DNA from: Margaritifera margaritifera
Lineage: Eukaryota; Mollusca; Bivalvia; Unionida; Margaritiferidae
NCBI GenBank assembly: GCA_029931535.1
Contig: JAQPZY010001548.1
Span: 248,001-312,000, forward strand
Length of the DNA: 64,000 bases
Reading direction: 5' to 3'
Shown: in pieces, positions 86 to 61,906 of the stretch
Layout of the letters: each line of letters begins with the position of its first letter
Position numbering within the stretch: the first letter of the stretch is position 1
Made by a program: the position numbers and the translations under genes
The notes under the pieces: model-generated
The model's input: the letters and a program-made list of their open reading frames with translations, nothing else
Databases searched by the model: none
Told to the model about the DNA's origin: nothing

Positions 86-570
86 TGTTATTAAAGTGCT
101 AGGTGTTAATGTTATAAGGGATCAATTGTAATAATGACTGTAGCGGTTTTGATCAGGATTTGGGGAAATATGGAATACATATACAATGTATATGTACCAA
201 TGAATGAAATAACAAGACAATTAATTTATCCAGAAACAGAATACATTTTTTTAGAGACAACAGTCAAAGATTTTATTCACCGATGATACAAAGGGATTAA
301 ATCTATAAACCGAGGGTGTAACCGAAGTCACTAAGGTGAACATATGACTGTTTGGTGTGTGGACTGTAATCACTGTAACATCAAAAACGCCCCAACAAAC
401 AACACAAGCCCTTCACAATGACAATCAAATCCAGAAAACGATTCTCACCTACTGGTATTAAAGACAAAGACAAAGACCTCATTCACCCCAGGCATTACGG
501 ATTAACTCCAAAGACAAATGATGTATGCGACCGCTATATTGACTTTGGCACTACAATGGCAGTTAGTGAC

Positions 571-1085
571 ATGTACTTTAGTCTGGTTTACAGTCTAGAA
601 CAAAGGAAACTACATGCATGACCTGCAAAAGTTAGAAAAACGGTAGCCAGTCTAATATGTTTTTATACTTGTTTTTTTTAGAACAGTCTTTACTTTGGAA
701 GCGGTCGTTGTTACAAAGGATAAAATAAACGTCAGTGGTGTTTGTCTCAGTTCTAGCGATAGGGTCGTTCATAGCAGTATTATTTTAGAACAAGCTGCCA
801 TACGCAAATTCGCGGGAAATCCTATGGATCATACTTTAGTCTCGCAGAAATAGCCGAGGTATTTCCGAATAAGCAATCGGCATGTACTCTAGTCTGGTTT
901 ACAATCTATAACATATAACACTACATTCATGAGCTGTACAATTCAAGAAACCGGTAGCCACCCTAATTTGTTTTTGATTTTGTTTTTAACATATTTGCTT
1001 CTTAAGTGGTTGTGGTTACAAAGAGTTAAATAAAGGTCAGTTGTGTTTATCTCTGTTTTGTGATGCGGTCATTCATAGCAGTGTC
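571..1085. repeat. about 310-bp imperfect tandem duplication
   Basis: The blocks 571-780 and 883-1085 are diverged direct copies. Shared landmarks are TTTAGTCTGGTTTACA / TCTAGTCTGGTTTACA, a GGTAGCCA motif followed by a T-rich stretch, and the ending TCATAGCAGT. The duplication lies in the leader of the partial pogo-like element. The small frame at 418-621 over the first copy has no recognisable domain and I do not call it a gene. Confidence 0.6.
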
Positions 1086-1242
1086 AAAATGTATATTTTG
1101 CCAGGAATCGCGGTAGCTGGTCGCGTTCTGCCCGTGGTCGCTCAGTGCGTTTATATAATAAAATCGATCCGTGCATTACGATTGTGGTCGCTCATGACAG
1201 GTGGTCGCTCATAGCAGAGGTCGCTCATGACAAGTTTTACTG

Positions 1243-1877
1243 TACTAGTATCATATAATTGCAAAGATTTTGCATTACTGAATTACAATACTGAGTTTTA
1301 TGTTATTGTTGCACATAGTATTTATTACTTAATGTTATTCTGTTCATAAATATGAATGTTATGCGACAAAAAAGATGTATGGCATTCTTTAGCAGTAACC
1401 TTTCATGATCGAGTCAGATACTGCAGATCTCCAATAAATACCATCAAACAAGAGTATATAGAGAGTAACACTAAACTTAGTTCAGTTTAAAATATCTGAA
1501 CAAATCAAATGGATGAGAAGTGAAGTAAAACTTAACAATAAAAACTTCAGCAGGTCACAAATGATAGTTGTCTCCCCTTTCTAGAAAGCATCCTAGTTCA
1601 TATTTTGAACCAGTCCTATATTTTACAAAATCTGATCAAGTTGTTGGTGTTTGTAGTGACAGGTAAAAAGAATAGTTTAATTATTTGTGAGGTATCAAAC
1701 ACTCAAAACAAGCTGAGCAACTTTTAAAACTGTAATGGAATCTGTTCAGAGATCCCACATAAAGTTTGACACAGGATGGATTGAAATTCAGGCTAAAACA
1801 AACAACTTCAGATATATCTGAGCAGCTGCATTTTTTTGGCAGCCATTTTTTGCTTTGTTGTGACACTGATACACATA
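1243..1877. other. unassigned AT-rich interval
   Basis: This stretch lies between two pogo-type termini, inside the putative third intron of LIG4. I see no exon with splice sites, no recognisable domain and no clear repeat. The minus-strand frame over 1681-1938 has no familiar motif and runs into the terminus of the next element. Confidence 0.4.
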
Positions 1878-3301: not shown

Positions 3302-3356
3302 TATGATGTACATGTAACATATGACACAAGTATTGATGGCAATATATAATAATGAA

Positions 3357-3515
3357 TGTTATTTGATTTGATATATTCTAATGTGTCTGAGCAACTGCAC
3401 TCCCTCTAGCAGCCTTTGATACTTGCTGTGATGTTATTTGATTTGATATATTCTAATATGTCTGAGCAACTGCACCCCTTCTAGCAGCCTTTGATGCTTG
3501 CTGTGATGTTATTTG
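3357..3515. repeat. 75-bp tandem duplication sharing a motif with LIG4 exon 3
   Basis: A unit containing ATTTGATTTGATATATTCTA and TCTGAGCAACTGCAC is present twice, with a third partial start near 3508. Each copy holds CTAGCAGCCTTTGATRCTTG. A similar string, CCTCTAGCAGCCTTTGG, ends LIG4 exon 3 at 7136-7155. No splice sites or open frame accompany the copies, so they are not exons. Confidence 0.7.
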
Positions 3516-3691
3516 ATGCTATGAAACAAACTGAAAATATAATATTTATAAGTGGGATTCCATCAATTTTTCATTTTTGGAAGTCCTGGACTTCTTTGGT
3601 TGGAAATTTGGAAGTCCCATAACTCAAGCCTGGAAGTCACATCAATCCACTTACCTTATAACTTGTGTACATTTTTTTACACTTAGTCATT

Positions 3692-5523: not shown

Positions 5524-5994
5524 TCAGACATGCAGGTTCAACAACTCTAGATTCGGATGGAATGCCTGCCATTGTGCTTGCTTGAGCAAATGAGGAAATA
5601 TCTCTAATTCCTGGGGATTTCCGCCACTATATTGATGAGGTCGCAGATGTACTTTTTTCCCGCAATCAATCAGGATGAGGTGACACTCCGATTCTCTTGC
5701 TTTCTGTATCATGTTCGGAAACAGGTGTGTTGGTGGGTAAGCATATGCGTCCAAGCCATTCCAATCTACGGAAAGAGTGTCAAGTGCCCAAGCCTTTGGA
5801 TCTTTGGCTGGTGAGACAAAGGTTGGGAGTTTTGCATTCCCCTTGTCACCAATAGATCCGCCAATGGTCCATCCCAGCGGGCACATATGTGAGTGAAAAC
5901 CGAGGGATGAAGTGACCACTTGGTCTTGCCCATGTTCTAAATCTGCAAGACAAAACTTAGCAGACAATATATACAGGTGTAGGCTGGCTCGCAC
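5524..5994 (-). pseudogene. DIRS polyprotein segment after RT/RNase H
   Basis: A minus-strand frame of 156 codons contains NAKLPTFVSP, PKAWALDTLSVDW, LDAYAYPPTHLFP and ESECHLILI, and ends WQAFHPNLELLNLHV. This combination is characteristic of the region between RNase H and the recombinase in DIRS-like elements, commonly seen as FVSP-x-DP-x-AWA-x-DALS-x-DW followed by AYAFPP. The first 35 residues match nothing I recognise, and the reverse transcriptase palm that should precede the segment is absent upstream. It ends 40 bp before the recombinase fragment starts. The open frame is retained here, but it is only a fragment of the polyprotein. Confidence 0.8.
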
Positions 5995-5999
5995 CCTGC

Positions 6000-6560
6000 T
6001 TTATGAACTCAGAGAGTGTATGTGCAGAGGTGTACACTATGACAATTTACCTGTAAAAGGGCGCATGTGACAGCCAATACAGGTAGAGTATTGGAGCATC
6101 GCTATTATTACTTACGAAGTGGATGCTAAAATATCAATTCTAATAAAAGTTACCTGTAGGAAAAGCCAACTGACTGCCTATACAGGTAAAATCACTGAAG
6201 CATTGCTTATAGTAACTATGAAGTGGATGCTATGACTAAATTATGTATAGAAAACTTACCTGTACATGTCCAATCACAATGGAAACTATACAGCAATATA
6301 ATTGAGTATTCTACAGCACACAATACCCACACATAAAATAAAGCTACAGCTCTGAAGAGTCACTATTGATACTTATGAAGTGGATGTTATAATATCAATT
6401 GTAAGACAATGTTACCTGTAGGATAGGTAAAATCAGTAAATCATTGGGTATATAACTACGAAGTGGATGCTAAGACTAAATTAATATAGAAAACTTACCT
6501 GTATCTATCTGACCGTAGCAGAAATTATATGGCAATATTGTATGAGTTTTCTATATCATA
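6000..6560. repeat. degenerate repeat block with recurrent small hairpins
   Basis: The motif TACGAAGTGGATGCTA (or close variants) recurs near 6113, 6210, 6374 and 6459. The pair TTACCTGTA ... TACAGGTAA forms short stem-loops, for example 6150-6188. On the minus strand the motif reads TACAGGTAAGT at about 6255 and 6495, which also matches a splice-donor consensus. The block replaces the expected RT coding region of the DIRS-like element. Confidence 0.6.
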
Positions 6561-7135: not shown

Positions 7136-7237
7136 CCCTCTAGCAGCCTTTGGTGCCTTGTAGTGTAGCAGCTTCATCGCATCTGGACTCTCCTTACCCA
7201 GGCATAGCACCTCTATCAGCAGCTTAGCCAGCATGTT
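7136..7237 (-). CDS. LIG4: DNA ligase IV, coding exon 3
   Basis: This 102-bp exon encodes 34 residues containing [12 protein letters not shown] and [11 protein letters not shown]. They align with the part of the LIG4 N-terminal DNA-binding domain that reads MLAKLYIELLNL and DALKLLNYRTP in the human protein. A pyrimidine-rich acceptor, TTTTTATTTTTAG, precedes base 7237 and a GTAACA donor follows base 7136. Both boundaries are phase 0, so it joins exon 2 in frame (GIKE then NMLAK). The next exon, expected to start with the AGDFA region, was not found to the left and should lie outside the window beyond the DIRS and pogo elements. LIG4 with XRCC4 seals double-strand breaks in non-homologous end joining. 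Confidence 0.9.
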
Positions 7238-11128: not shown

Positions 11129-11206
11129 CTCCTTGATGCCATAAGCTACTCTCTCTTTCTCCAAGTGTGGCAACAAAAGTCTCATTGCTGGATAGAATGA
11201 ATCAGT
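11129..11206 (-). CDS. LIG4: DNA ligase IV, coding exon 2
   Basis: This 78-bp exon encodes [19 protein letters not shown] plus VAYGIKE. It matches the human LIG4 stretch [19 protein letters not shown] then MAYGIKE nearly residue for residue. The acceptor is TTTTGTTCCTTTTCAG before base 11206 and the donor is GTAATATT after 11129. Both boundaries are phase 0, joining exon 1 (KENKDT) and exon 3 (NMLAK). Conservation and intact splice sites indicate a functional exon. Its acceptor and first 17 nt are repeated in tandem directly upstream. Confidence 0.93.
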
Positions 11207-11503
11207 CTGAAAAGGAACAAAATGTTCTTAAATTCCAAAATGTGTACGATGGATAGAATGAATCAGTCTGAAAAAGAACAAAATGTTCTTAAATTCCAAA
11301 ATGTGTATGATGGATAGAATGAATCAGTCTGAAAAGGAACAAAATGTTCTTAAATTCCAAAATGTGTATGATGGATAGAATGAATCAGTCTGAAAAGGAA
11401 CAAAATGTTCTTTAATTCCAAAATGTATATGATGGATAAAGTGAATCAGTCTAAAAAAGAACAAAACATTCTTACATTCCAAAATGTGTATGATCATGTT
11501 TTC
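11190..11503 (-). repeat. 61-bp tandem array carrying the LIG4 exon 2 acceptor
   Basis: About five copies of a 61-bp unit are present. Read on the minus strand, each holds ATTTTGTTCCTTTTCAG followed by ACTGATTCATTCTATCC, that is the polypyrimidine tract, AG and the first 17 nt of exon 2, and then CATCATACACATTTTGG. The copy next to the exon is the one used by the true exon. Copies diverge by a few bases (for example TCTTTTTCAG). The most distal copy, near 11450, is the most diverged. Confidence 0.92.
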
Positions 11504-12027
11504 CAGTGCAAAACACCGACTTAGAATATAATTCATGATATCGGTGATCATCACTATAGTCTTACAACACAGGATGTCAAAACTGATTTTTGATAGGCGA
11601 TTTGCCACTCTGACTCAATTGTACAATCTCATCAAATCCATGACATCACAATTGTTGTTTTTCTATTGTAATTAATTTAGCTATGTGCATTTTAACCACA
11701 TTTCCAATTTTATACTGAATTTTTCATTTGTCATATGATTCACTATATCTCCTTATTAGAACATTTTTCTATTTCACTTGGCATTTTTTTTGACAAAAAT
11801 GTATTATATGCAACTTACCATCAAGTAAACACAAACCCATGTATGTTTTTTTGTGTCCAATGTATATATACATACAGAGTGCATTAGAGCACTGGTACAC
11901 GACAGCTAGGAGATGGGTGCCATTATTCACGGCATGAATTAAATTCCTGTTTGGAATGAATTATACTCACTAACCCGTTTGATTATAGTTGTGTCATTCT
12001 ATACAACTTTCTTTCATATAATCTTAT

Positions 12028-12150
12028 AATCATGTATCCATACATACAATCATGTATCCATATATATAATTATGTATCCATACATATAATCATGTATCCA
12101 TACATATAATCAAGTATCCATACATATAATCATGTATCCATACATACAAT
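12028..12150. repeat. 20-bp tandem repeat, about 6 copies
   Basis: The unit AATCATGTATCCATACATAC, with small changes, repeats six times. Confidence 0.85.
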
Positions 12151-12344
12151 GTAGATCCAGGCATAAGCACTTTGCCTCTTTAGTATACAGGTGTCAATTT
12201 GTATATAGTTCAAACTAGTATTCAAAAAATGCAACTAGAATCGCTTTTGTGGACTGAGATTTTGCCTCTTAAATGCACATGAGCAATTTTCACTTCATCT
12301 ATTGATTTGAAGATGAGCCCCAGTGAAACATGGATTTGAGGCAT

Positions 12345-13111
12345 GAATGTAGTACAGAAAGCCACAGGACAAAAATTCACAGACAAAAAGTCACAGACAG
12401 AATGTCACCGGACAAAAAAACACAATTTGAATTTTCACTATTATGAGAGACAGGTTGGACAAAAAGTCACAGGTCATAAAGTCACACTTTGAATTTTACA
12501 ATGCTGTAGGTTTTTATTTGACACAACTTAATTAACTGCAACTTCGTCATCAAGATACTAACATAATAAACAAAGTATCAGAGTTTAGAACCACCCATGT
12601 TGCTTGTAATGATTTCCATTTTGGTATGATTTCTTTGACAAAAACCTTAGATTTTTTTTATTTTTTTTCAATCAAACAGGAGTATTTTTTGCTCATATGC
12701 TCACATCTGAAGCCATGGAAAGAAAAGCCATTTGCAAACCAAAAAAGGGTTTCATTTTATTTACATACTTGTTTATAAAGTAATTAGAGATTGAAACTAA
12801 AATTTTACTTGTTTATTCTCATCAAAACTACCTTTTCCTGTCAAATAGAAGCCTTAAATAAACCTCAGTGATCGCAATGTTATAGGTTTGTTTTACAATT
12901 TTCCTTTAAGACTTCAGTTGCTAAGCAATTCCCTTTTCCTGTGAAACCAACAATTTATTGTAATCATTCATAGTAATAATTATTGAATGTGACTTTTTGT
13001 CCTACATGTCCACCAATACTATGATAATTCAAATTGTGACCTTTTGTCTTGTGACTTTCTGTCCTATGTGTATTTGTGACCTTTTGTCCTGTAACTTTCT
13101 GTCTGTTTACC
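12345..13111. mobile_element. MULE-type non-autonomous TIR element, 9-bp TSD
   Basis: The perfect 9-bp direct repeat TTGAGGCAT flanks the element at 12336-12344 and 13112-13120. The termini align base for base in length: left GAATGTAGTACAGAAAGCC, right (reverse complement) GGTAAACAGACAGAAAGTT, followed by ACAGGACAAAA in both. Each end carries an array of about five GGACAAAAAGTCACA-like units (period 15-16 bp). The interior of about 0.5 kb is AT-rich and non-coding. A 9-bp target duplication and long repetitive TIRs point to the Mutator superfamily. It lies in LIG4 intron 1. Confidence 0.8.
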
Positions 13112-13249
13112 TTGAGGCATACCCCTCTTACTCCGTATGACAGTTTCTCATTGATCCGACTTCCCCGATTTCTGGAGCACCTAGTCTTTAACATGTGAAT
13201 AAATATCCCCTAATGTCCTAGTATGCACCACATTCATTAGCAGTAGTCC

Positions 13250-13350
13250 ACTAGCCTTTTTAAACTTTTTAAACCGTCACAAATATACATGTTTCTACAT
13301 TTTTCTGGGCCCTTTTAAATTTTGTGTTGGCTTCATTTGAGTAGATGAAA
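13250..13350. mobile_element. fragment of the neighbouring MULE family
   Basis: CTTTTTAAACYSTCMCAAAT and ACATGTTTCTACATTTTTCT with the following TGGGCCCTTTTAAATTTTG occur here. The same strings occur inside the adjacent intact-ended MULE at about 13500-13585, so this is a separate fragment just outside its left terminus. Confidence 0.6.
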
Positions 13351-13509
13351 TGATATGGAATTTGGACACTGTTTTAAGACATTATGGCTAATTAGGGGTA
13401 CAGACAAAATCCCCTTAGGACAAAATCCCCCTTGGACAAAACCCCCCAACAAAATGAAAGATAGGACATAATCCCCTCCCCCAGTCTAAGTTTATCCCTT
13501 TCTAGCTTT

Positions 13510-13790
13510 TTAAACTGTCCCAAATATACATGTTTCTACATTTTTCTGGGCCCTTTGAAATTTTGTGTCTGCTTCCCTTAGATGAAAGACGTATAGTATT
13601 CGGGTTAGATGAAGCCACATACATGTATATACGTATTTCTGGGCCCTTTGAAATTTTGTGGTTTTCTCTTGAGTAGATGGAAGATGTATAGTGTACGTGT
13701 TAGATGAAGCCACATACATACATGTTTCTGGGCCCTTTGAAATTTTGTGTTGGCTTCCCTTGAGTAGATGGAATACGTATAGTGTGCAGG
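13510..13790. repeat. about 100-bp repeat, three copies, inside the MULE
   Basis: Units contain TTTCTGGGCCCTTTGAAATT, then TTGAGTAGATGGAA and GGTTAGATGAAGCCACATAC. Inverted counterparts occur in the second MULE at 30660-30830, which supports common ancestry of the two elements. Confidence 0.8.
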
Positions 13791-14114
13791 TTAGATGTTA
13801 GATCTTAAGAGACAAGGAGATTGAGATGCCTAATGATCATTTTGATCTAAAGACTAATTGCATGCGCATGTGCTTTGTCACCTTGCTCTCATAAGCATCA
13901 CTCCACACACTTTTAATCCATCACATTAAATCCTTCCACAACATTTTTAACACTTGCATTTTATTGTATACCGTATTTAGAAAAATAGTGCCAAGATTTT
14001 GCGACTTATTTTGTTTGTTGTTGGAATACGAACTCCCATGTTAATGATCATAAATCGTCATATAATAAGCTGTATTTTGGGAAATGTGAAACCACTTGAA
14101 ACTTAATAATCAGT

Positions 14115-14459
14115 ATGGAAATAATCAGGAGTAATAAGGGTGGTGAAAAGTTGTGCTATGATGGTTACATGTACAAGAAGAAGGCTGAGAATAAAATCTG
14201 CATCTGATGGGAGTGCTCCCAAAGGAAGGCACGCCAATGCAAGGGCGCAATTACTACAAACTTAGATCGCAATGATTTACATGTGACTGTCCCGCACAGC
14301 CATGAAGCTAATCCAAACCTTGCTGAGGTAGTGAAGTTTAGGCTCCATTTATGTGCAAACTCTGAATTCAAGAGAATTATGCATGGATGCTGCCTTGGTA
14401 TCAATGGGTCTTCTTCAAGATGCAAGGGGCGAGGCACAGAAAAAAAAATAGTCAAATGA
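14115..14459 (+). pseudogene. FLYWCH zinc-finger protein of a MULE, truncated
   Basis: The frame starts MEIIRSNKGGEKLCYDGY, continues with an ICI-stop-WEC interruption, then QRKARQCKGAITTN and VTVPHSHEANPNLAE. The order G-x-x-Y, W-x-C, C-x-x-(A)-x-x-T, H-x-H is that of a FLYWCH-type zinc finger, the DNA-binding domain often fused to MULE transposases. The TGA inside the finger replaces an Arg codon (the second copy reads IRIRWEC). After the finger the frame ends within 55 codons, so the catalytic domain is lost. It lies in the forward orientation within the 9-bp-TSD MULE. Confidence 0.85.
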
Positions 14460-15007
14460 ATGACAAAAAAGCTGCAAAATTGTCTGATGAGGATCTGAAC
14501 GGATTATCAGCAACGCCTGAATACCATCGACAAAACCCTGATAGTTGTAGGGCACTGCATCCACTGGAAATAGAGCATTACTAGCATAAAGTTGGAACAA
14601 GTACAGAATTTACTTATTTGACCATTATTGTTACATTTTCTTAAGTACTTTATTGGATAAATATTAAATTCCATAATTTCATTAAATACGAGGTATATTG
14701 ATAATATGTCAAATTTCTTCTTTTTTCTTCCCCTTTCCTGTTTCAAAATAGGCCAGTACCAGATCTTTTAACTCGATTCTATAATGATAACATACTGAAA
14801 ACAAGTTGCCAGTATAGATGTATATTTGCAAGTTTAAACAGTTTCAAAAGGGCTAAATTTAGACTGGGGGAGGGAATTATGCCCTATCTTTGATTTTGCT
14901 GGGTGGATTTTGTCCCAAGGGCATTTTGTCCTACACCCGGCTAATTACAAGGGATATGTGGGTCATCTAAATACTGCAACATGTAAAGATAGGTGAACTT
15001 TTATCAC

Positions 15008-15205
15008 CGTGTCTTTGTTTTCCTTGTGAAGAGTTTCGTGTGACTGCCTCCAATGATCAATGAAATCTTTTAAAATTCTCTTTTTCTTGTCATTTCCTTG
15101 AGTTTTCCATATCTTCTCAAGAAGTCCACACAGCTCTGCAAATTTCACTTTAGATGCAAGACCTACGCATGCATCTATCGAGTCCCCTTTGTCGTCGTCT
15201 CCCAT
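15008..15205 (-). CDS. LIG4: DNA ligase IV, coding exon 1 (start of protein)
   Basis: The ATG at 15205 has a good context (ACAATGG). The exon encodes 66 residues: an acidic variable leader (MGDDDKGDSIDACVG) and then VKFAELCGLLEKIWKTQG, IDHWRQSHETLHKENKDT. This aligns with the human LIG4 start VPFADLCSTLERIQKSKG and LDSWRKFHDALHKNHKDV. The exon ends ACG before a GTGATA donor, phase 0, and joins exon 2 as [14 protein letters not shown]. The donor is weaker than consensus, but the joined protein matches the family exactly across the junction. A MULE insertion begins 60 bp into the following intron. The domain encoded is the alpha-helical DNA-binding domain that encircles nicked DNA. Confidence 0.93.
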
Positions 15206-58617: not shown

Positions 58618-60614
58618 ACAGTACACCTTTCACTCTCAGAGAGTTACAAGACTCTCTTGATTAAGTCCATGACACTTCAGCAGGACCAAATGATACCCAC
58701 TGTCAACTTCTGAATCACTTACTTGACACGGCTCTAAATACACTGCCAAACATTTTCAATAAAATTTGGGAAACTGGTGGCTTTCCACAGTCTTGGTGAG
58801 AAGCAAGGTGATACCTTTACCCAAACCTGAAAAGGACCAAACCGACCCTTCTAACTATTGTTCCATATCATTAACAAGCTGTTTCTGCAGAGCCATGGAT
58901 GATAGACTACTCAGGTATCTTGAATCCAACAAACTATTATCAGGCATTCAATGTGGATGCAGACTTCAGAGAAGCACAATAGACCATCTTGTCAGATTTT
59001 AAGCATTTATTTGAGAATCTGTCTCTTTCAACTTGGAGAAAGCTTATGACACAACATGGAAGTATGGCTTAATGAATAACTTAATCAGCTTTCTAAGTCT
59101 AATGGGCTGCCTACACAGCTTTCTAGGTCTAAGGGGCTGCCTACCTAGCTTTCTAGGTCTAATGGGCTGCCTACCCAGCTTTCTAGGTCTAATGGGCTGC
59201 CTACACAGCTTTCTAGGTCTAAGGGGCTGCCTACCTAGCTTTCTAGGTCTAAGGGGCTGCCTACCCAGCTTTCTAGGTCTAATGGGCTGCCTACCCAGCT
59301 TTCTAGGTCTAAGGGGCTGCCTACCCAGCTTTCTAGGTCTAAGGGGCTGCCTACCCAGCTTTCTAGGTTAAAGGGGCTGCCTACCTAGCTATATCTCCAA
59401 TTTTTTGAAAGATAGAAACTTCAGACTTAAGGTAGGCAGCACCCTTTCTGAAAGCTATCCTCAAAAGATGGGTGTATCTCAAGGCAGCATATTGTCAGTT
59501 ACATCAAAATTAACAGCATAGTGAAATGCCATAAGTCAGGAACTGACTGCTCATTATATGTTCATGATTTTTTGATCCGCTATAGATCAAAGAATATGCA
59601 CACTATTGAATGTCACTACAGATAGGCTTAAACAGTGTTCAGAAATGGGCAGAAGATAATGGGTTAAGATTTTAAAAATCTAAAACTGTATAAACTTTTG
59701 CTGACTACATCATATTCATGATGACCCAAAACTCGACGGATGTCTTATTCCTGTTGTGGAGGAGATAACATTTTTAGGGCTTATTTACGACCATTAACAA
59801 AATTTCTTCCACGTATTAGATACCTCAGGGACAAATGTCAAAAAGCCCTGGATTTAAAATGAGTCAGGGCAAACACAGATTGGGGAGCAGGTAGGAAGGT
59901 CTTGCTCCATTTAATCAGGTCATTAGAAAGATTGAAACTTGACTATGGCTTGATTCTGTATGGATCAGCTTGTAAATCTTACCTGCAGGTGCTTGATCCA
60001 ATACACAGGAATTTACTCAGGGTGCATTTAGAACCTCCCCTTCAAAAAGCCTCAATGTTGAGGCAGATAAACTATCACTTTATCTCAGATGAACGACATT
60101 GGCTCTTCAGTATGCTACCAAACTATCTTCTAATCCTTTTAACCCCGCATATGATGTAGTCTTTAGACCCAAATACCAAAACTTGTACACTCAGAAACCA
60201 AACTTTTTTCTACCTTTTGGCATACAAATCCATCCTCACTTAGAAACAGCAAATAGTGCAAGATTTTATACTTCCAAATCACCACCATCTCGAGCCACTT
60301 ATTGGATAAGGCCTCAATTTTTATTGCAGAAGTTACAGCCTACAGCTTTGAACTATGTTAAAACCTCTCAACAAATGAATTTCATCATCTTTTTGGATTC
60401 CCTTTCGACACTGAAAGCCTTGCAGAATTTTAAATCTGACAACCCGTTAATATCCCAGATATTACAGAAACATGATGTTATCATTCAATATGGGAAAAGT
60501 ATTTTGGACTGTTGGGTGTCTAGTCTCATTGGTATAAAGGGTAATGAAAGGGCAGATAAAGAAGCCAAAGCTGCTCTACAGTCACCTGTTTCCCATTGGA
60601 AGATTCCATATAAC

Positions 60615-60651: not shown

Positions 60652-61906
60652 TGTTAAATTATGAAGGGTTTTATAAACCATAACACATCTGTGATATGAA
60701 ATTCTTTTGTCAAAAGGGGTGCCAGTTTAAAGACTTAAACATGTCCACATTGTCATTGGATCAACATCTAGAATAATTCTAGCTGCATGCATTTGAAGTT
60801 TTATTATACAATTAATATTAGTTGTGTGCATGAGCCCCATACTGTGCAATAGTAGTCCATAATAAGTAATATGTAAGTTGAATAGAATAGTTTCCTTGCA
60901 TGCATTGCTAGATATTTCTTCAGTCTTTGCAGTAGAGTTTGTTTGGAGACTATTATGTTACAGACATGATCTATGTGATGATTCCAAGTTAGTTTATCAT
61001 CATTAGATATATATTCATCATATACAGACAATCGAATGGGGTTTTCCATGGATAATCTGTTTGATGTTCCTACTAGCATTGCAGTGGTCTTTTTGGTATC
61101 TATATACATTCCATTGTCTTGACACCATTTACAGATATGATTAAGATCATGCTGCAGCTGTTCTTGTATTGTGTTGCTGTTTTGACCTGATGTGTGGAAT
61201 GTTGCATTATCTGCATACCTATCAGTTTCAGTGTTTTCTCTATACAATGGCAGGTCATTAATATTTAAGAGAAAGAAGATAGGTCCTAGGATTGAGCCCT
61301 GAGGGATACCATATTTTATATGACCAGGACTTGATAGAGTACTGTTTAGTTGTACTTGCTTGATTCTGTCACTAAGATAAGATTGTATCCAGGAAATGGT
61401 TTTTGCACTGAAATTGTAATAAACTAGTTTTCCCAGAAGTATGTTAAGGTCAACAAAGTCAAATGCCTTCTTTAGATCTAAAAAGATAGATACTATTGTG
61501 TTACCCTTATCAATGTCTTCAAGCCATTTATCAATTATCTTTATTAGCGCAGTATGACATGAGTGGTTTGATCAAAAACCTGATTGGTGTTGATGTAGGA
61601 GGTCATTTGTTTGTAAGAAAGTACTGATTTGTTTTGCAATATGTTTCACAATATTTTGGAAATGGTGGGTAGAACCGAAATAGGTCTGTAATTATCTGCA
61701 AGATCTTTCTCATTTCCCTTGTGTAATGGTGTTATTCTTGCCCTCTTTAAGGTATAAGGAAATTTATAACATTTTAGGCTTAAGTTTATAACGTGTGCTA
61801 TTGACTTGTGTATTATATTAGCACTTAGTTTTAACAATTTAGGACCAATAACCTTCTACCCCTGTAGCCTTTTGTGTATTAAGGTTTTTGAGATAGTGCC
61901 ATACAT
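60652..61906 (-). pseudogene. LINE reverse transcriptase, broken
   Basis: Blocks are IPNEDVWHYLKN (resuming after the insertion), LKCYKFPYTLKRARITPLHK, KDLADNYRPISVLPTISKIL, QSGF-stop-SNHSCHTALIK, VSIFLDLKKAFDFVDLNILL, SWIQSYLSDRIKQVQLN, YGIPQGSILGPIFF, DRYADNATFHTSGQ (YADD is YADN), WNHHIDHVCNIIVSKQTLL and YSTYILLIMDYYCTVWGS, ending near LHNLTP. The order is that of Jockey/CR1-type RT. The second Asp of the catalytic box is lost, and several stops and shifts are present. Confidence 0.87.

Follow-up and report, generated by a model that had tools for sequence, protein, structure and literature searches.

The LIG4 Gene and Other Features of the Window

The window, meaning the whole stretch of 64,000 nucleotides that was analysed (C1119:248001-312000), carries on its minus strand exons 1 to 3 of a gene for DNA ligase IV (LIG4; Table 1). 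A search of the assembly with a human LIG4 protein gave 17 collinear minus-strand pieces, lying between residues 10 and 906, along about 86 kb (C1119:176802-263205). These pieces are protein matches and not all of them are base-exact exons; two are weak (E 0.010 and 0.005), residues 782-806 have no piece, and one extra match out of order (E 2.9) was dropped. Joined in phase 0, exons 1, 2 and 3 encode 126 amino acids that match DNA ligase 4 chains of the PDB (E 6e-38) and the Pfam domain DNA_ligase_A_N (1.9e-16). The closest LIG4 with a named organism was that of Lingula anatina (67% over 110 residues), and the human protein reached 58.5% over 106. The premise of the sequence-only reading, homology to LIG4, therefore holds, and the collinear pieces together with the PDB and Pfam matches make it firm at the level of sequence. 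The borders of exon 2 are identical in three ORFs from relatives (P0027-P0029), which read Q|xDSFYP...GIKE|V, and at the donor position of exon 1 the ORF of a relative (P0005) continues through it, with ...KDT followed by V.

In the other parts of the window, a reverse transcriptase fragment of a retroelement was found at 60804-61571 (Pfam RVT_1, 4e-17), and ten 30-bp units (59086-59390) lie in frame inside an ORF (59015-59371) that looks by eye like a piece of reverse transcriptase. LIG4 intron 3 contains neighbouring minus-strand ORFs between 4488 and 6000 that appear mobile-element-like by eye, the longest of them (5524-6000) having no Pfam match. In addition, an (ATAC)51 microsatellite with 99% matches occupies positions 49143-49347, and an Rfam scan of the window at gathering score gave no match.

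Table 1. Exons of LIG4 and border-spanning arrays in LIG4 and in kinase loci
Feature	Position	Strand	Description
LIG4 exon 1, coding part	15008..15205	-	66 aa; donor ACG|gtgata
LIG4 intron 1	11207..15007	-	3801 nt; four complete upstream acceptor copies and the real acceptor
LIG4 exon 2	11129..11206	-	78 nt, phase 0, 26 aa; PDB DNA ligase 4, E 1.3e-9
LIG4 exon 3	7136..7237	-	102 nt, phase 0; same borders in relatives' ORFs P0023-P0025
Border-spanning array, LIG4 exon 2	11190..11494	-	5 x 61 bp: 44 nt of intron end and 17 nt of exon start
Copy 1, outermost	11434..11494	-	most diverged; acceptor TTTTTTAG; first exon nt 11450
Copy 2, decoy acceptor	11373..11433	-	first exon nt 11389
Copy 3, decoy acceptor	11312..11372	-	first exon nt 11328
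Copy 4, decoy acceptor	11251..11311	-	first exon nt 11267
Copy 5, authentic acceptor	11190..11250	-	first exon nt 11206; sole open LIG4 frame of the five
LIG4 exon 5 donor array			65-bp unit; three donor copies
LIG4 exon 6 donor array	C1119:233959-234612		54-bp unit; twelve identical CCAGAAG|GTAT donors
Kinase locus L060, acceptor array	294-742		51-bp unit; nine units around ACAG|GAGGG
Kinase locus L064, donor array	821-984	-	89-bp unit; two units
Kinase locus L069, donor array	971-1577		43-bp unit; fourteen units around TTCAG|GTTAGAC

The Exon 2 Acceptor Is Repeated Five Times

It had been proposed from the letters alone that a 61-bp minus-strand unit containing the acceptor of LIG4 exon 2 is repeated about five times. 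This was confirmed by TRF (period 61, 5.0 copies, 94% matches, score 535, 11189-11494) and by the spacing of the splice sites, as the array contains five AG|ACTGATTCA sites exactly 61 nt apart. The proposed span, 11190..11503, was correct at its start, whereas the array ends at 11494. The string AGACTGATTC occurs five times in the window, both strands counted, and all five occurrences are acceptor sites of the array. An AG and a pyrimidine tract are present in every copy, with the five AG dinucleotides intact. The identity of the acceptor and exon sequence among units that the same reading described was found in four of the five copies, where ACTGATTCATTCTATCC is exact; the outermost copy departs from it, with two differences (ACTGATTCACTTTATCC) and with TTTTTTAG in place of CAG. 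Copies 2-5 differ from each other at one to three of the 61 positions, and the outermost copy differs from them at six to nine.

The 61-bp unit has no other occurrence in the window outside the array, and in the 2.45-Gb assembly (G000) the array was the single match of a search that skips very common words. Upstream of 11494 no decayed extra copies were seen, the best ungapped match being 31/61 against a background top of 34.

Predicted Products of the Five Acceptors

Joining exon 1 to the acceptor at 11206, and this in turn to exon 3, leaves the frame open, and this acceptor is the only one of the five to do so. When exon 1 is joined to 11267, 11328 or 11389, a stop is met after 87 residues, and when it is joined to 11450, after 78. 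From these premature stops to the exon 2/3 junction the distance is 73, 134, 195 and 283 nt for the decoys at 11267, 11328, 11389 and 11450, respectively. It exceeds 50 nt in all four cases, so that under the 50-nt rule the four decoy messages are predicted targets of nonsense-mediated decay. The argument that an upstream copy would shift the frame because 61 is not a multiple of 3 is incomplete, as three units add up to 183 nt and keep the frame; every upstream choice is ruined by a stop codon inside the unit.

Scoring with an approximate 3' splice site matrix gave, from the outermost copy to the real site, 12.9, 12.4, 12.4, 13.1 and 12.4, all within 0.7 bit, and placed the five acceptors of the array as the top five of the 202 AGs scored in intron 1 and exon 2. 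The weaker tracts attributed to the distal copies were thus not borne out with this matrix. Since the five acceptors are equal in predicted strength, position and not strength separates the real site from the decoys, and the sequence by itself gives no reason for the last copy to win. A role as branch point for the CTGAT of the exon piece, located 57 nt before the next AG, was considered and dropped because another AG intervenes. The ORF that runs on through the array gave no candidate when used in a protein search.

Arrays at Other Borders of LIG4

Analysis of the complete gene revealed three LIG4 borders inside arrays, the exon 2 acceptor and the donors of exons 5 and 6, the last two outside the window. 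At exon 6, reading past the real donor meets a stop. At exon 5, use of the first decoy donor inserts 65 nt, which shift the frame but contain no stop, a case against frame-stopping decoys as a general rule; with the second, the insertion is 116 nt long and does contain a stop. The introns after exons 9 and 10 contain arrays of 42 and 21 bp, respectively, which start about 14 and about 10 nt in and repeat GTAAGT/GTGAGT or AG|GTAA motifs.

Within the 144 kb around LIG4, TRF detected 67 distinct arrays with a period of at least 20, covering 14.5% of the sequence. Coverage was 19.6% in the gene body (C1119:176802-263205), 4.4% in the 48.8 kb upstream and 20.8% in the 8.8 kb that follow the last of the LIG4 pieces, the latter value indicating that the richness in arrays is not confined to the gene. 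This density in the gene body explains the frequency of border-spanning arrays in LIG4. An array was found within 15 nt of 4/16 donors and 1/16 acceptors, against 0.207 of random gene-body positions, and hence no enrichment over density was detected at LIG4 splice sites within this distance. Within 150 nt, the counts were 7/16 donors and 2/16 acceptors against 0.279, a mild donor-side excess; in both comparisons the random figure is for the donor-side interval only, and some LIG4 borders were set by eye and may be up to 4 nt off. Arrays occupy 27.9% of the first 100 nt after LIG4 donors and 6.5% of the last 100 nt before acceptors.

Arrays at Kinase Exons

The kinase sample consisted of 40 short stop-free matches, hand-picked among the 139 kinase-domain matches listed (135 of 1100 candidates scored) and taken as two sets of 20 with 700 nt on each side. 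Exon borders in this sample were placed by the ends of the matches and the splice signals close to them, and not by transcripts. Border-spanning arrays were found at three of these 40 exons (L060, L064 and L069; Table 1), compared with 3/17 exons in LIG4. Counted per border, this corresponds to 3/80 (about 4%) for the kinases and to 6/112 when LIG4, itself chosen because of the finding, is included. The arrangement seen at LIG4 exon 2 is found with unrelated repeat units at LIG4 exons 5 and 6 and at the kinase borders. An array of this type had been called unusual; in view of the two further LIG4 arrays and the three among 40 sampled kinase exons, it is less so here.

Unit numbers in the kinase arrays are those of TRF, and altered units were read by eye. 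In L060, the AG is lost in place in one of the eight decoys, with an AG 1 nt further on, and in L069 the GT is lost in one unit and the base before it changed in two. Reading past the real donor of L064 and L069 reaches a stop, as does reading from a decoy acceptor in L060, again by eye. In four more loci (L045, L049, L056 and L059), an array begins at most 120 nt downstream of the match and does not reach across the border.

Arrays cover 8.5% and 12.6% of the two sets of kinase loci, and 2.8% of the top 30 kinase matches with flanks, mostly long frames; the minisatellite share of the LIG4 body, about 20%, compares with this range of 2.8-12.6%. An array was present upstream in 5/20 and downstream in 8/20 loci of the first set, and in 9/20 and 7/20, respectively, of the second. 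The idea that arrays prefer the donor side, downstream of the exon, was accordingly dropped, because the preference was not repeated in the second kinase set.

Relation to Lancelet Mirages and Other Systems

Tandem duplications of intron-exon borders have been described in lancelet genes as "mirages" (PMC3087553 and PMC3902484, with Canestro et al. 2002 cited there). In these two reports, mirages are found in Adh3, BflGb6, BflGb9, TnC and PGBD5 (PGBD5 added, and TnC cited, by PMC3902484), vary in length and go along with apparently normal splicing. Their units measure 10-72 bp in Adh3, 60 and 108 bp in PGBD5 and 150-160 bp in the globins, and BflGb6 has six and three units in two haplotypes (PMC3087553). 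As far as these descriptions go, the LIG4 array likewise runs head-to-tail, spans an exon-intron border and carries splice signals, and its 61-bp unit falls inside the published range of lengths. BflGb6 has the same geometry, intron end plus start of exon 2, and the same pattern of homogenised inner and diverged edge units (PMC3087553). With a border-spanning tandem duplication, splice signals and homogenised inner and diverged edge copies all present, the LIG4 array belongs, judged by its sequence, to the known mirage kind. It differs from the lancelet cases in the gene (DNA ligase IV), in the presence of three arrays within one gene and in the animal, which is probably not a lancelet, its assembly measuring 2.45 Gb and lancelet genomes about 0.5 Gb. 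A search of open-licence full texts found no report of mirages outside lancelets; what is new here is the pair of further border-spanning LIG4 arrays outside the window and the arrays at kinase exons. Length instability and apparently normal splicing are observations made in lancelets.

In NAGNAG acceptors, the AGs lie 3 nt apart behind one tract, whereas each AG of the LIG4 array has its own tract and is 61 nt from the next. This spacing, with the next AG upstream of each acceptor 20 nt away, sets the array apart from the NAGNAG type, although in both cases several AGs compete for one donor. Tandem acceptors of the NAGNAG type are the subject of PMC2875228. Internal tandem repeats modify human paralogs in segmental duplications (PMC2812944); there, intragenic minisatellite growth likewise alters exon/intron structure and can involve cryptic splice sites. 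Those repeats change exon or intron length in recent paralogs, whereas the LIG4 array is a border array with a single match and a complete acceptor in each unit. Intron gain through duplication of AG|GT does not apply, as ACTGATT follows the AG in every unit, and a canine LHX3 repeat (PMC3223203), described in connection with intron shortening, is not alike.

A separate observation concerns a two-copy 75-bp tandem repeat in LIG4 intron 3 (3356-3517), in which 17 nt are identical to the last 17 of exon 3 (CAAAGGCTGCTAGAGGG, 7136-7152). Its local alignment with exon 3 scored 40, against 30 for the best tile outside the repeat and exon 3 among 1570 tile scores. The repeat may be what is left of a mirage of the donor of exon 3, decayed and displaced.

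Origin of the Array and Alternative Explanations

We consider it probable, with good though not full confidence, that the exon 2 array is a minisatellite of the mirage type, a near-neutral passenger spliced mostly from the exon-proximal copy, and that it most likely arose passively as minisatellites grew. An initial tandem duplication would have run from a breakpoint 44 nt deep in intron 1 to one 17 nt deep in LIG4 exon 2. The unit joins read CTATCC|ATCATAC and the outer flanks AACATG|ATCATAC and CTATCC|AGCAATG; as at most 1 nt is common to the breakpoints, the first duplication does not seem to have been seeded by long homology. A later expansion to five copies would have followed, with their likeness kept by slippage or unequal exchange. 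Inner copies that are alike next to a diverged outer copy form the pattern of tandem turnover and, in the one haplotype represented, suggest growth and homogenisation of the inner units after the first duplication.

The spliceosome would mostly pick the copy nearest the exon interior, presumably because no other copy has the remainder of exon 2, with its donor, following at normal distance. If an upstream copy were used now and then, 61-244 nt carrying a stop codon would be added, and nonsense-mediated decay would degrade the resulting message. The array would be carried as a nearly neutral passenger. It is one of several such arrays found in this genome, in which the sampled introns are rich in minisatellites. 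Individuals probably differ in its copy number, a length polymorphism that is plausible by analogy with the two lancelet BflGb6 haplotypes.

The idea that the array controls dosage, with decoys sending a fixed share of LIG4 pre-mRNA to nonsense-mediated decay and array length tuning the amount of ligase IV, is a sharpened form of the sequence-only reading. It agrees with the fact that each decoy is a complete acceptor, predicted to be as strong as the others, that five of five AG dinucleotides are intact and that the early stops precede the next junction by over 50 nt. However, similar arrays are present at unrelated borders of LIG4 and in kinases, which is what a general mutational process would give, and L060 and L069 each contain one decoy without its splice dinucleotide (by eye), as drift would give. 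Lancelet mirages, moreover, apparently leave splicing undisturbed (PMC3087553, PMC3902484). We therefore regard dosage control as unlikely, and less likely than passive carriage. Mirage repeats have also been proposed, for lancelet globins, to be able to become real exons or introns (PMC3087553), and skipping of exon 2 would preserve the frame. The array could in this view be material from which a new exon or intron forms, and mark an incipient change of gene structure. Against this, no good donor was recognised by eye in the units behind the 17-nt exon piece, and read-through meets stops; we hold such a change to be quite improbable.

Tandem arrays are prone to miscounting in assembly, and the copies could for that reason have been invented or miscounted by the assembler. 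One lancelet mirage seems to be misassembled in the draft genome (PMC3087553), but the LIG4 copies carry copy-specific differences, the outermost at 6-9 of 61 positions, and the array sits within a 4.16-Mb contig. An artefact is, in our judgement, the least probable of these explanations. Passive carriage of a mirage-type minisatellite is the reading that we retain.

Implications

With the LIG4 arrays, mirages would be known from an animal that is probably of another kind than lancelets, and the arrays indicate how introns rich in minisatellites can bring decoy splice sites into a DNA-repair gene. That mirage arrays are common throughout the genome of a non-lancelet animal is about as likely as not on the present sample. 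If about 4% of borders carry 2-14 alike sites and the genes work, splice choice would have to be set by position (exon definition) and not by sequence, and minisatellite growth would supply alternative splice sites steadily.

Alike competing splice sites placed in series are a classic splicing experiment. Natural series of this type are found here, with five acceptors at LIG4 exon 2 and 12 identical donors at exon 6, together with nine acceptor units and 14 donor units in the kinases, a few of these altered. The number and exactness of these decoy series make the choice between position and sequence in splicing testable from RNA reads.
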